NCBI GenBank assembly: GCA_002790095.1
Contig: PFUL01000145.1
Location: 1 to 35,846 of the forward strand
Reading direction: 5' to 3'
DNA from: Elusimicrobia bacterium CG_4_9_14_3_um_filter_62_55
GTDB taxonomy: Bacteria > Elusimicrobiota > Elusimicrobia > UBA1565
DNA: 35,846 nt
Below are positions 30,764-35,846 of the stretch, in pieces (the stretch's first letter is position 1; each line of letters starts with the position of its first letter). The notes under the pieces are model-generated. The model did no database searches, was not told the origin of the DNA, and saw only the letters and a list, made by a program, of their open reading frames with translations. Made by a program: the position numbers and the translations under genes.

Positions 30764-33091
30764 ATGACGACCCTCGCTCAAACCCCGACCAATTCCGACT
30801 CTCTCCGCCTGCGCCCCCGGCGCGGCGTGTATAAGAAAGTTGTTGCGGCCTCTTTGGAAGACGCGGCCTTCTTCGAAGATTTCGACATCGCCTACCGCGC
30901 GCTCACGGCGATCCTCTTCAACTTCTCCTCCTCGGGACACCCGGGCGGGAGCATTTCCGCCGGAAAAACCATGGCCGGCCTCATTTTCGACACGATGGAC
31001 TACGACTTCTCAAAGCCCGACCGAGAGGACTCGGACTTGATCGTTTTCGCCGGCGGCCACAAGGCGATGGGCATGTACGCGATGTGGGCTATTCGGGACG
31101 AACTGGTGAAGACCGCCCGACCGAAACTCCTCGGAACCTCGAAACGCCGCCTGCGCTTCGAAGACCTGCTGGGCTTCCGCCGCAACCCGACTCAAGGCAC
31201 GCCTCTGTTTAAGAAGTTCGACTCGAAACCGCTGGACGGCCATCCCACGCCGATCGTTCCGTTCGTGCCGGTCGCAACCGGACCCAGCGGGGTCGGCATC
31301 TGCTCGGCCGTCGGCCTAGCCGCCGGCGCGCGCGACGCGTACGGGAAGAACTGCCCGGTCGTTCACATCATCGAAGGGGAAGGCGGGATGACCCCCGGCC
31401 GCGTCCACGAGGCGATCGCCGCGGGCGTCACCAACGGCCTCTCGAACACCTGGCTCCACATCGACTGGAATCAGGCCTCGATCGATTCCGACGCGGTCTG
31501 CGCTCTCGACGGGACCCCCGGCGACTACGTCCAATGGGATCCGGTCGAGTTGATGCGTCTGCACGACTGGAACGTGGTCTACGCCGGAAACGGCCACGAC
31601 GTCGCGAACGTGCACACGGCCCTGAGACTCGCTGGAGAGATGGACAACGACCTGCCGACCGCGATCGTCTACCGGACGATCAAGGGCTGGCGCTACGGCG
31701 TCGAGGGCAAAAAATCCCACGGCGGCGGCCACAAATTCGGCTCCGAAGGCTACCACGCGGCGCTTCGCCCGTTCGAAGAGCGCTTCGGGATGGAATTCCC
31801 AAAACTCGAGCAGGGAATGGACTCGAAGGCGCACGAGCAGGCCTATTGGGACACGCTTACCGCGATGCGAAAAGCGATCGCCGCGCATCCCGGTTTCGCG
31901 AAAACCGCCGCCGACCGAGTCCAAGCGGCGAAAGACCGGCTCGACGCGAGCCGCCGCACGCCGCGCCCGGGCCCGAATCTCTCAAAGATCTACGGGAATT
32001 CCGTCGACGCGAAGAAGACCCCGAAGGAATTGGTGAACGAACCCGGATCGGGACAAACGCTCCGCGGCGCGCTCGGCGACTCTTTGGGCTACCTGAACCA
32101 GCTCTCCGGCGGATCCATTTTGGCCTGCGCCGCCGATCTGCTCGATTCGACGAGCGTCTCAGGCGCCGGGAAGGGCTTTCCGGGAGGATTCTTCCACCCG
32201 AGCACGAATCCACAATCGCGTTTGCTCGCCGTCGGCGGCATCTGCGAGGACGCGATGGGCGGGATCATGGCGGGCATCTCCGCCTTCGGCCGCCACATCG
32301 GGGTTTCGAGCTCTTACTCGGCCTTCATCGCGCCGCTTGAACACATCCCGGCGCGCTGCCACGCGATCAGCCAGCAGTTCCGCCGTGAAATGACCGGGGA
32401 ACCGTACCGCCCCTGGATCATGATCAACGGCCACGCCGGCTCGATGACGGGCGAGGACGGTCCGACTCACGCGGACCCTCAGCCGCTTCAGATGTACGCG
32501 GGGAATTTCCCCAAGGGCAGGGTGATCACCCTCACCCCGTGGGACCCCAACGAGGTGTGGCCGCTGCTTGTCGCGGCGCTCAAGGCCCGCCCGGCGGTCA
32601 TCACCCCGTTCGTCACGCGTCCGAAGATGACCGTGGTGGACCGAAAGAAGCTCGGGCTTCCTCCGGCGTTCATCGCCGCGCAGGGCGTCTACGCGATGCG
32701 CCGCGCGAAAACGAAGAAGACCGTCGTTTTGCTGGGACACGCGGCGGGCTCGATGTTCGTCGACTTCGTGCTTCCCCGCCTCGACAAGGAAAAGGCGAAG
32801 CTGAATGTATTCTATGTGTCGAGCTCCGAGCTCTTCGATCTCCTTCCGCCGAAAAAACAAGAGGAGATCTTCCCGGAAGCGCTCACGTACGGCGCGATGG
32901 GCATCACGGACTTCACGCTCCCGACGCTGTACCGTTGGGTGCGCTCGAACAAAGGCCAGAAGGCCAGCGTCTATCCGTTCAGCCGGGATCATTATCTCGG
33001 CAGCGGGGATTGGACGAAGGTCCTCGAGGAAGGACGGCTTGACGGTCCCGGCCAGTGGAAGGCGGTTAAGGCGTACCTAAAAGCGCGCTGA
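30764..33091 (+). CDS. Transketolase-family ThDP enzyme, long form (775 aa)
   Basis: The thiamine-diphosphate domain shows SSGHPGGSISAG, GPSGVGICSAVGLAAGARD and a modified cofactor motif: EGEGGMTPGRVHEAI…WNQASID stands where transketolases have GDG…N. The pyrimidine domain contains VGGICEDAMGGIMAGISAFGRHIG, with the Glu that activates the cofactor, and the third domain ends VYPFSRDHYLGSGDW. Usual transketolases have about 660 residues. Here an extra 100 or so lie mainly around 170-190 and 340-430. The family moves two-carbon units in the pentose phosphate pathway. The altered motif and length leave room for another substrate. No other sugar-phosphate genes are adjacent. Confidence 0.83.
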   Translation: MTTLAQTPTNSDSLRLRPRRGVYKKVVAASLEDAAFFEDFDIAYRALTAILFNFSSSGHPGGSISAGKTMAGLIFDTMDYDFSKPDREDSDLIVFAGGHKAMGMYAMWAIRDELVKTARPKLLGTSKRRLRFEDLLGFRRNPTQGTPLFKKFDSKPLDGHPTPIVPFVPVATGPSGVGICSAVGLAAGARDAYGKNCPVVHIIEGEGGMTPGRVHEAIAAGVTNGLSNTWLHIDWNQASIDSDAVCALDGTPGDYVQWDPVELMRLHDWNVVYAGNGHDVANVHTALRLAGEMDNDLPTAIVYRTIKGWRYGVEGKKSHGGGHKFGSEGYHAALRPFEERFGMEFPKLEQGMDSKAHEQAYWDTLTAMRKAIAAHPGFAKTAADRVQAAKDRLDASRRTPRPGPNLSKIYGNSVDAKKTPKELVNEPGSGQTLRGALGDSLGYLNQLSGGSILACAADLLDSTSVSGAGKGFPGGFFHPSTNPQSRLLAVGGICEDAMGGIMAGISAFGRHIGVSSSYSAFIAPLEHIPARCHAISQQFRREMTGEPYRPWIMINGHAGSMTGEDGPTHADPQPLQMYAGNFPKGRVITLTPWDPNEVWPLLVAALKARPAVITPFVTRPKMTVVDRKKLGLPPAFIAAQGVYAMRRAKTKKTVVLLGHAAGSMFVDFVLPRLDKEKAKLNVFYVSSSELFDLLPPKKQEEIFPEALTYGAMGITDFTLPTLYRWVRSNKGQKASVYPFSRDHYLGSGDWTKVLEEGRLDGPGQWKAVKAYLKAR

Positions 33092-33148: not shown

Positions 33149-33754
33149 TCAAACCGCACTCCCCCCCGATCGCACATGCACATCGCGCTGCGGAAACGGA
33201 ATCTCGATCTTCGCCCGGCGCAACGCCTTCTCCAGCTCGAAATAAATCAGGCTCTTCGTATGAAACTGCTTGCGCGGATCCCGTATCCACACCAGCAGCT
33301 CAAAATTCAACGACGAATCCCCGAAGCCCAAGAAGCGCACGCTCGGCCGCGGCTCGGAAAGAATCTCCTCATGCGCCGTCACGCTCAGCGCCGTCTCCCG
33401 CACCCTCTCCGTATCGCTGCCGTACGCCACGCCGAAGAAGCCGCCCAGCACCGTCAAACTCGTCAGGTTCACGCCGACGGACTGAATCGCCACGAGCACC
33501 GAAACCGCGATCATCGTGTAGTGCAGCATGCGCGTCAAGGCGTAGCCCAGCCCGCGCTCAAAGGACAGCCGCGACCCGAATTGCGAGCGCAGCAGCTTTT
33601 GGATCAGGCGCGAAAGCATCGTCCCGCCGACGATAATCATCGTCGCGGCGAAAAAACTCATCACGCTGACCGGCGAGTCCCCCAAAGTGAAGATAGGGGC
33701 GGTAAAGATCTTCTGCAGCAGTCGAAGTCCCTCGGTCGGATTAAAATCGATCAT
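33149..33754 (-). CDS. MscS-type protein with the pore and beta domain deleted
   Basis: A 201-residue protein that begins like a MscS mechanosensitive channel: TM helices to about residue 95, then VGVNLTSLTVLGG. At residues 104-110 the sequence jumps from GGFFGV straight to the cytoplasmic C-terminal domain (AYGSDTERVRETALSVTAHEEIL…VRFLGFGDSSLNFELLVWIRDP). MscS family members have about 80-90 residues between these points, holding the pore helix TM3b and the beta domain. The frame is intact across the junction (about 33425-33440), so this is an in-frame deletion. It is unlikely to form a normal channel. It ends near the transketolase gene, convergent. Confidence 0.85.
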   Translation of the reverse strand: MIDFNPTEGLRLLQKIFTAPIFTLGDSPVSVMSFFAATMIIVGGTMLSRLIQKLLRSQFGSRLSFERGLGYALTRMLHYTMIAVSVLVAIQSVGVNLTSLTVLGGFFGVAYGSDTERVRETALSVTAHEEILSEPRPSVRFLGFGDSSLNFELLVWIRDPRKQFHTKSLIYFELEKALRRAKIEIPFPQRDVHVRSGGSAV

Positions 33755-33862
33755 GGTTGTCGTCGGCCCCCCAAAACCCGTGGATATCCCGATTTTAGCC
33801 GATTACGCGGAAGTTCCGCCGCGGTTTCGCGAGGATCCGCTGATATCCCCGTGGATATCCCC

Positions 33863-33891
33863 TTGCGCGTACAGAATCCGTCTCTTACAAT
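33863..33891 (+). promoter_or_regulatory. Promoter of the PAS kinase gene, leaderless type
   Basis: TTGCGC (33863-33868), a 17-nt spacer and TACAAT (33886-33891) end 8 nt before the ATG at 33900. An in-frame start upstream (33687) would precede the promoter. Confidence 0.55.
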
Positions 33892-33899
33892 CTTCACTA

Positions 33900-35012
33900 A
33901 TGAAAGATCCCGTATCGGAATACGCCGCCGAATCCCGGCAGGCGCTGTACTTTCTCGACTCGATCATCGAGGCGATTCCGAATATGGTCTTAGTAAAGGA
34001 AGCGCGCGACCTTCGATTCGTGCGCTTCAATAAGGCCGGAGAGGAACTTCTGGGGCTGCCGCGCGAGGAGATGATCGGAAAAAACGACTACGACCTTTTC
34101 CCGAAGGAGCAGGCGGACTTCTTTACCTCCCACGATCGATGGGTTCTCAAATCGGGGGAACCGCTCGACATCCCCGAGGAACCCGTCGACACTCCCAACG
34201 GGAAGCGCTGGCTGCATACGCAGAAGATTCCGCTTTTGGGCCCGGACGGCAGTCCCGCGTTTTTGCTCGGGATCTCGCGGGATATCACCAAACACCGAAT
34301 GCTCGACCGAGAGCGGGACGATCTGATCGCGGTGGCGAGTCACGAACTGCGCTCCCCGGCAAGCGCCATCGTGGGGTCCCTCACGACGCTCGCGGACGCG
34401 CTGGGCGATGCGATCCCCCCGGACGCGTCCGAAACCCTCGCGCTGACCCTGGAAAACGCCGAGCGCCTGGTCCATCTGCTCGACGACTGCCTCGACATGT
34501 CTTTACTGACCGCCAAGAATCTCCGCTTCGACGCGGATTCCTTCGATTTGGCCCGTCTGTTGGAGGACGCGATTCGTCTCAACGGTCCTTACGCCATACG
34601 ACTCGCGTCTCACTATACGCTCTCCGATTCTCTCCCGTCGGCTCCCGTCCGGGGCGATCGCCACAAACTGATGCAGGCGCTGACGAATCTGTTGACGAAC
34701 GCGGCGAAGTTCTCGCGAAAGGGAGCGTCGGTCGTGGTTTCTTTAATGGAACAGGGGGAATCGTACCTCGTCTCGATCGAGGACCGCGGTCCGGGCATCC
34801 CGGAAGAGTTCCGAAGCCGCATCTTCCATCGGTTCTCCCGCTCGCGCTCGGACGCCACAGCGGCGATGGAAGGCTCGGGACTGGGCCTCGCGATCACCAA
34901 GCGCATCATCGAAGCCCATGGGGGAAGGATCGGCTACCGCTGCGAATTCACGCGGGGAACGACCTTTTACTTCACGGTTCCGAAAGCGTCAGACGTGAAG
35001 AACGCGCAATAG
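33900..35012 (+). CDS. Cytosolic PAS-HisKA histidine kinase
   Basis: A 370-residue kinase. The PAS domain is at residues about 17-135 (DSIIEAIPNMVLVKEARDLRFVRFNKAGEELLG…DITKHRMLDRERDD). The HisKA helix carries the phospho-acceptor His in VASHELRSPASAIVGSL. The ATPase includes LTNLLTNAAKFSRKGA, EDRGPGIPEEF, FSRSRSDA and GSGLGLAITKRIIEAHGG. No membrane segment is visible. I chose the ATG at 33900 because it agrees with the promoter and with PAS domain length. Its 3' end overlaps the convergent antiporter gene by 24 nt. No response regulator is adjacent. Confidence 0.94.
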   Translation: MKDPVSEYAAESRQALYFLDSIIEAIPNMVLVKEARDLRFVRFNKAGEELLGLPREEMIGKNDYDLFPKEQADFFTSHDRWVLKSGEPLDIPEEPVDTPNGKRWLHTQKIPLLGPDGSPAFLLGISRDITKHRMLDRERDDLIAVASHELRSPASAIVGSLTTLADALGDAIPPDASETLALTLENAERLVHLLDDCLDMSLLTAKNLRFDADSFDLARLLEDAIRLNGPYAIRLASHYTLSDSLPSAPVRGDRHKLMQALTNLLTNAAKFSRKGASVVVSLMEQGESYLVSIEDRGPGIPEEFRSRIFHRFSRSRSDATAAMEGSGLGLAITKRIIEAHGGRIGYRCEFTRGTTFYFTVPKASDVKNAQ

Positions 35013-35846
35013 ATCCCGCTGTTCAATCAACCCAATCGGGTGCTTCCGCTCCATATCCTCGACCACGGCGATTTCGCCGAGATTATGGCGATGGAAAAGA
35101 CGCAGAATTTCCGGGAGTCCCGTCTCCGGCGTGACGATCGGCGTGTCGGAATCGGCCAAATTCCCGGCCGTCGCGCGCCGAGCGGAAGCGGAGCCGTACA
35201 ACTGGTCCCGAATCTTCCGGAAATGGATCATCCCGACGTAGGCACCGGTCTTATCGACGACCGGAAAGTCATGGAAGCGGCTGCGCTCGATGAACTCCAG
35301 CACGGCGTCGAAATCGCTTTCCGAGGGGAGGAAGTTGATGTTGGTGCGCATCAGATGGCGGGCGGTCAGCGCCCCCTCGGTCTTCGGAAGAGTTCCTTCG
35401 TCACTCGCCTGCTTGAGCAGGCGGTTCATCCCGGGTCCCGGGCTGATCCAGGTCCGCTGTAGGAAACCCGGGCGCAATAAGGTGACCGCCTTAACCTCCC
35501 CGGCTTCAATGAGAGTCCGCTTCACGAACATCGGACCGCTGATCTCGAACAGGGCGACCGCGGCGAGCAATATCGTGTTGAGTTTTGCGGCGACGGGATG
35601 GACCCAATTTGCGGTGATCGCCGCGCCGAGAGAGATGGCGACGCTCCCCTGACAGAGCAGCCCCAGCCCCGTCGATTCGGGAACGGTCGCGTCCGGGCCC
35701 TGCGCGAGCACGGCACGCCGCACGCCCCAATACTTCGCCCCTGCGCGCGCAGCGATGTAGACCACGCCGAGCAAGCCGAGATGCGGCAATTCTTCCAAAT
35801 GAAGCGCGTAGCCCGCCAGGACGAAGAACAGAGAGAAGATCGGCAT
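34989..35846 (-). CDS. Cation:proton antiporter-like protein with two CBS domains, C-terminal part
   Basis: The gene runs off the right edge, so only the last 285 residues are seen. The first part is membrane-spanning (IFSLFFVLAGYALHLEELPHLGLLGVVYIAARAGAKYWG; LGLLCQGSVAISLGAAITA), similar to the final helices of a CPA2-type sodium- or potassium-proton antiporter. Two CBS domains follow: LMRTNINFLPSESDFDAVLEFI…DFPVVDKTGAYVGMIHFRKIRDQL and NLADSDTPIVTPETGLPEILRLFHRHNLGEIAVVEDMERKHPIGLIEQRDLLRVL. CBS domains bind adenine nucleotides or c-di-AMP and usually regulate such transporters. The Met at the edge is probably internal. Its stop overlaps the convergent kinase. Confidence 0.8.
   Translation of the reverse strand: MPIFSLFFVLAGYALHLEELPHLGLLGVVYIAARAGAKYWGVRRAVLAQGPDATVPESTGLGLLCQGSVAISLGAAITANWVHPVAAKLNTILLAAVALFEISGPMFVKRTLIEAGEVKAVTLLRPGFLQRTWISPGPGMNRLLKQASDEGTLPKTEGALTARHLMRTNINFLPSESDFDAVLEFIERSRFHDFPVVDKTGAYVGMIHFRKIRDQLYGSASARRATAGNLADSDTPIVTPETGLPEILRLFHRHNLGEIAVVEDMERKHPIGLIEQRDLLRVLHV

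Follow-up and report, generated by a model that had tools for sequence, protein, structure and literature searches.

The window, i.e., the whole 35,846-nucleotide (nt) stretch of contig PFUL01000145.1 in assembly GCA_002790095.1 of Elusimicrobia bacterium CG_4_9_14_3_um_filter_62_55, contains on its minus strand an MscS-like mechanosensitive channel gene from which an internal segment of 264 bp is absent in frame. We favor, with modest confidence, a true deletion in the cells over one found merely in the assembly. The reference for the deletion was the homologue in the only same-genus genome found (G001), a protein of 293 amino acids (aa) (G001:C189:6148-7026; L006:1498..2379) in which all three MscS Pfam domains scored above their cut-offs, with PF00924 at 3.2e-22. 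Alignment with this one congener yielded two ungapped blocks, comprising window residues 2-109 (67% identity) and 107-197 (74% identity), the offsets of which differed by exactly 88 aa or 264 nt. The absent residues extend in the congener from GLGFGLQNV... to ...IRLHVPFGV and comprise the later part of transmembrane helix (TM) 3a, TM3b, and the entire beta domain. The window protein thus runs from LTVLGGFFGV straight into AYGSDTERV (junction codons GGC GGC TTC TTC GGC GTG / GCG TAC GGC AGC). An in-frame loss of the pore and beta domain, estimated at 80 to 90 residues, had been proposed in an initial annotation that suggested alignment with MscS homologues; the alignment confirmed a clean absence of 264 nt, and the size and the coordinates had been correctly judged.

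Domain searches agreed with the alignment. The C-terminal alpha/beta domain was detected (MS_channel_3rd, PF21082, window residues 107-185), and MS_channel_1st gave a partial match over most of its TM2/TM3 model that was slightly below cut-off (7.8e-05). No match to the beta domain MS_channel_2nd (PF00924) was found in the window protein, and in a PF00924 search of the whole genome the window gene locus was not among the matches. Of the pore-lining TM3 (TM3a plus TM3b) that a working MscS has, only the start of TM3a remains, the alignment stopping after GGFFGV. In a hydropathy scan, the TM3 segment was found at residues 97-115 of the congener protein and fell below the threshold in the window protein. 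Neither stops nor frameshifts were present in the window gene, and the conservation of the reading frame and of both flanks had been rightly noted in the initial annotation. The retained parts, which overlap within the remaining repeat copy described below, are listed in Table 1.

Table 1. Parts of the MscS-like gene in the window
Feature	Position	Strand	Basis
MscS-like gene with internal 264-bp deletion	33149..33754	minus	201-aa open frame plus stop; open reading frame (ORF) list, Pfam, alignment to intact congener gene
N-terminal part retained: TM1, TM2, first part of TM3a, end ...LTVLGGFFGV	33428..33754	minus	67% identity to congener residues 2-109; partial MS_channel_1st; hydropathy
Deletion junction, single remaining repeat copy TTCGGCGTG (FGV)	33428..33436	minus	264 bp (88 codons) fewer than congener
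C-terminal part retained: alpha/beta domain (MS_channel_3rd), from FGVAYGSD	33149..33436	minus	74% identity to congener residues 195-285; PF21082 1.5e-15

The ends of the missing segment coincide with a short direct repeat. In the congener gene, an exact 8-bp repeat, TTTGGCGT, is located at both breakpoints (gene positions 318 and 582, 0-based); the copies are spaced 264 bp apart, which is the missing length, and lie in the same codon register (FGV...FGV). A single copy, TTC GGC GTG (TTCGGCGTG), is left in the window gene, so that a repeat at both breakpoints and one retained copy, as in a direct-repeat deletion, were indeed found. The earlier suggestion that the ends are short similar stretches between which recombination could have occurred is upheld by these positions. 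Finding repeated 8-mers in a gene this long is not unusual (18 were listed, several of them overlapping); the repeat alone is therefore unremarkable, and the weight lies in both ends of the deletion coinciding with one repeat. The segment would have been lost between two in-register copies of TT[C/T]GGCGT (FGV in translation), with replication slippage or single-strand annealing as the most likely mechanism, and distal TM3a, TM3b, and the complete beta domain would have gone with it. A deletion between copies that share a codon register preserves the frame automatically, and the open frame can therefore not be taken as a sign that the product is under selection.

The window gene would thus belong to an ordinary MscS-like mechanosensitive channel and be present as an allele that lost its function recently. 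Differences from the congener at codon positions 1, 2, and 3 numbered 31, 18, and 61 in one flank and 19, 11, and 59 in the other; as this divergence is mainly at third positions and no stops are present, a real deletion would be recent. Judging from the known architecture of MscS, the product, which lacks the pore-lining helix and the beta domain and keeps only a stub of TM3, is probably nonfunctional as a channel. The PF00924 search placed further MscS beta domains of the same genome at C132, C87, and C73 and gave a weak match at C11 as a fourth. With at least three other genes of the MscS family present, the cell would be able to tolerate the loss, and the window gene would be a null allele among redundant family members. 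The initial annotation had left a choice between a recent loss and a new role for the product. The recent loss is supported by the third-position divergence, the absence of stops and frameshifts, and the restriction of the deletion to one genome, whereas the new role found no support, given this same private distribution, the repeat register, and the paralogues. A selected function, e.g., that of a regulatory subunit in which the 201-aa protein joins full-length MscS heptamers as a pore-less derivative, is consistent with the open frame and with the good conservation of both remaining parts; we nevertheless consider it very improbable, as the TM3 stub no longer yields a hydrophobic segment of its own, the repeat alone predicts an in-frame outcome, and no second case was encountered in the searched genomes of the phylum or at about 80 further loci.

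The distribution of the deletion was assessed in genomes of increasing distance. The initial annotation had suggested looking for it in sister genomes, and none shared it: the congener gene is intact, and the same deletion was found neither in the order search (56 genomes), nor among the matches, from 74 genomes, in the phylum search (341 genomes), nor at 80 loci of other phyla (GTDB genome contigs). At L127 (which had an odd alignment length), L130, and L117, the middle part was as usual, and at L052 part of the middle was absent together with the N-terminal side. Every MscS relative examined has the intact form, which supports a private deletion in the window gene. Within the named genome collection, the proteins that matched the window protein best (L017-L049) were mostly cyanobacterial (approximately 53 to 59% identity, best segment), and homologues from other genera of the window's own order were less similar (approximately 23 to 37% identity). 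Horizontal transfer of the MscS-like gene would fit this closer resemblance to cyanobacterial proteins.

Alternatively, the gene may actually be intact, and the initial annotation had itself named an assembly error as what would refute the deletion. In that case, an assembler, a scaffolder, or a chimeric amplification product would have bridged a segment of poor coverage by fusing its flanks at a short overlap; we regard this as plausible, albeit short of probable. The draft genome comprises 202 contigs and has small N-gaps within scaffolds. In the sampled part of the assembly, four N-runs of 22 to 53 bases were located inside longer contigs, which shows that scaffolding took place and that sequences may have been falsely joined at a short overlap. 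An overlap of the length seen at the junction might be accepted by a gap-closing step. A repeat of approximately 8 to 11 bp is too short, on the other hand, to collapse in ordinary k-mer assembly unless there is an additional gap in coverage. In favor of an artefact, the deletion is private to a single assembly, and its flanks are free of decay. These internal N-runs weigh against a deletion in the cells, as do two further points: the repeat in the window lineage is deduced from a single congener with 62 to 74% protein identity, and no stop, frameshift, or other decay has accumulated since the deletion, a picture to which an artefact would look alike. A search for the missing segment elsewhere in the own genome detected only paralogues (≤36% identity) and no stand-alone copy in the readable contigs (those shorter than approximately 3 kb read as N), which speaks against a misjoin.

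Whether clean deletions are a general habit of this assembly was assessed by comparing, as a control, about 0.7 Mb of the own genome (G000) with 1.3 Mb of G001; here 162 ORFs in one direction and 174 in the other had a match of ≥50% identity. No further clean loss of a conserved core was found in this sample, which also argues against an artefact at the MscS-like gene, and such a habit was rejected. Elsewhere in the sample, large differences affected linkers of big membrane proteins (L169/L193), part of a 2006-aa protein where conservation is poor (L135/L195), and sequence between genes (L203/L256). Such joins are not habitual in this assembly; a single artefact may nevertheless have occurred. 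Separately, it was observed that L193 (G000:C19:1-20000) and L169 (G001:C35:1-20000) contain a cluster of membrane proteins that are very large and transporter-like, some of them carrying additional domains, and that the two species differ at three places in this cluster by linker-sized insertions or deletions of approximately 225 nt.

The MscS-like gene is flanked on one side by a transketolase-like gene (30764..33091, plus strand) and on the other by a PAS/histidine-kinase gene (approximately 33900..35012, plus strand) that is transcribed in the opposite direction, followed by a gene for a CBS-domain membrane protein (34989..35846, minus strand). The congener copy has different neighbors, with a Rieske-type oxygenase-like ORF (named by eye) directly upstream and an unrelated ORF downstream. 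The gene neighborhood showed no sign of a mobile element or of a partner with which the short protein could have a function. In the spacer between the MscS-like and histidine-kinase genes (33780..33865), a motif resembling GGATATCCC occurs in several close copies, among them two of GTGGATATCCC and one of CTGATATCCCC; these could be a small regulatory repeat or could have arisen by chance.

Taken as a whole, the finding is an ordinary one, namely, a single internal deletion that is private to this genome, or else a misjoin, in one gene of a family with several members here. Two cautions follow for the reading of similar genes: when in-register repeats bound a clean in-frame deletion, the preserved frame does not testify to selection on the product, and a draft assembly is able to produce the same picture as a real in-frame deletion.

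Compared with known systems, the window gene resembles deletions between short direct repeats generated by replication slippage or single-strand annealing, in which the breakpoints likewise lie in the repeat and a single copy is retained; here, however, the event is deduced from one congener rather than from a parental strain. With the intact congener channel, the window protein has in common TM1, TM2, the start of TM3, and the C-terminal alpha/beta domain, 62 to 74% identical and ungapped. Among solved structures, the channel part of MscK (7uw5) is the closest by sequence, followed by MscM and MscS, and the 88 residues that the window protein lacks correspond approximately to MscK residues 922-1009, i.e., most of TM3a, TM3b, and the beta domain. 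The miniature MscS of Trypanosoma cruzi, TcMscS (PMC12334622), is also a naturally shortened MscS-family protein, of which the window protein represents the reverse case.
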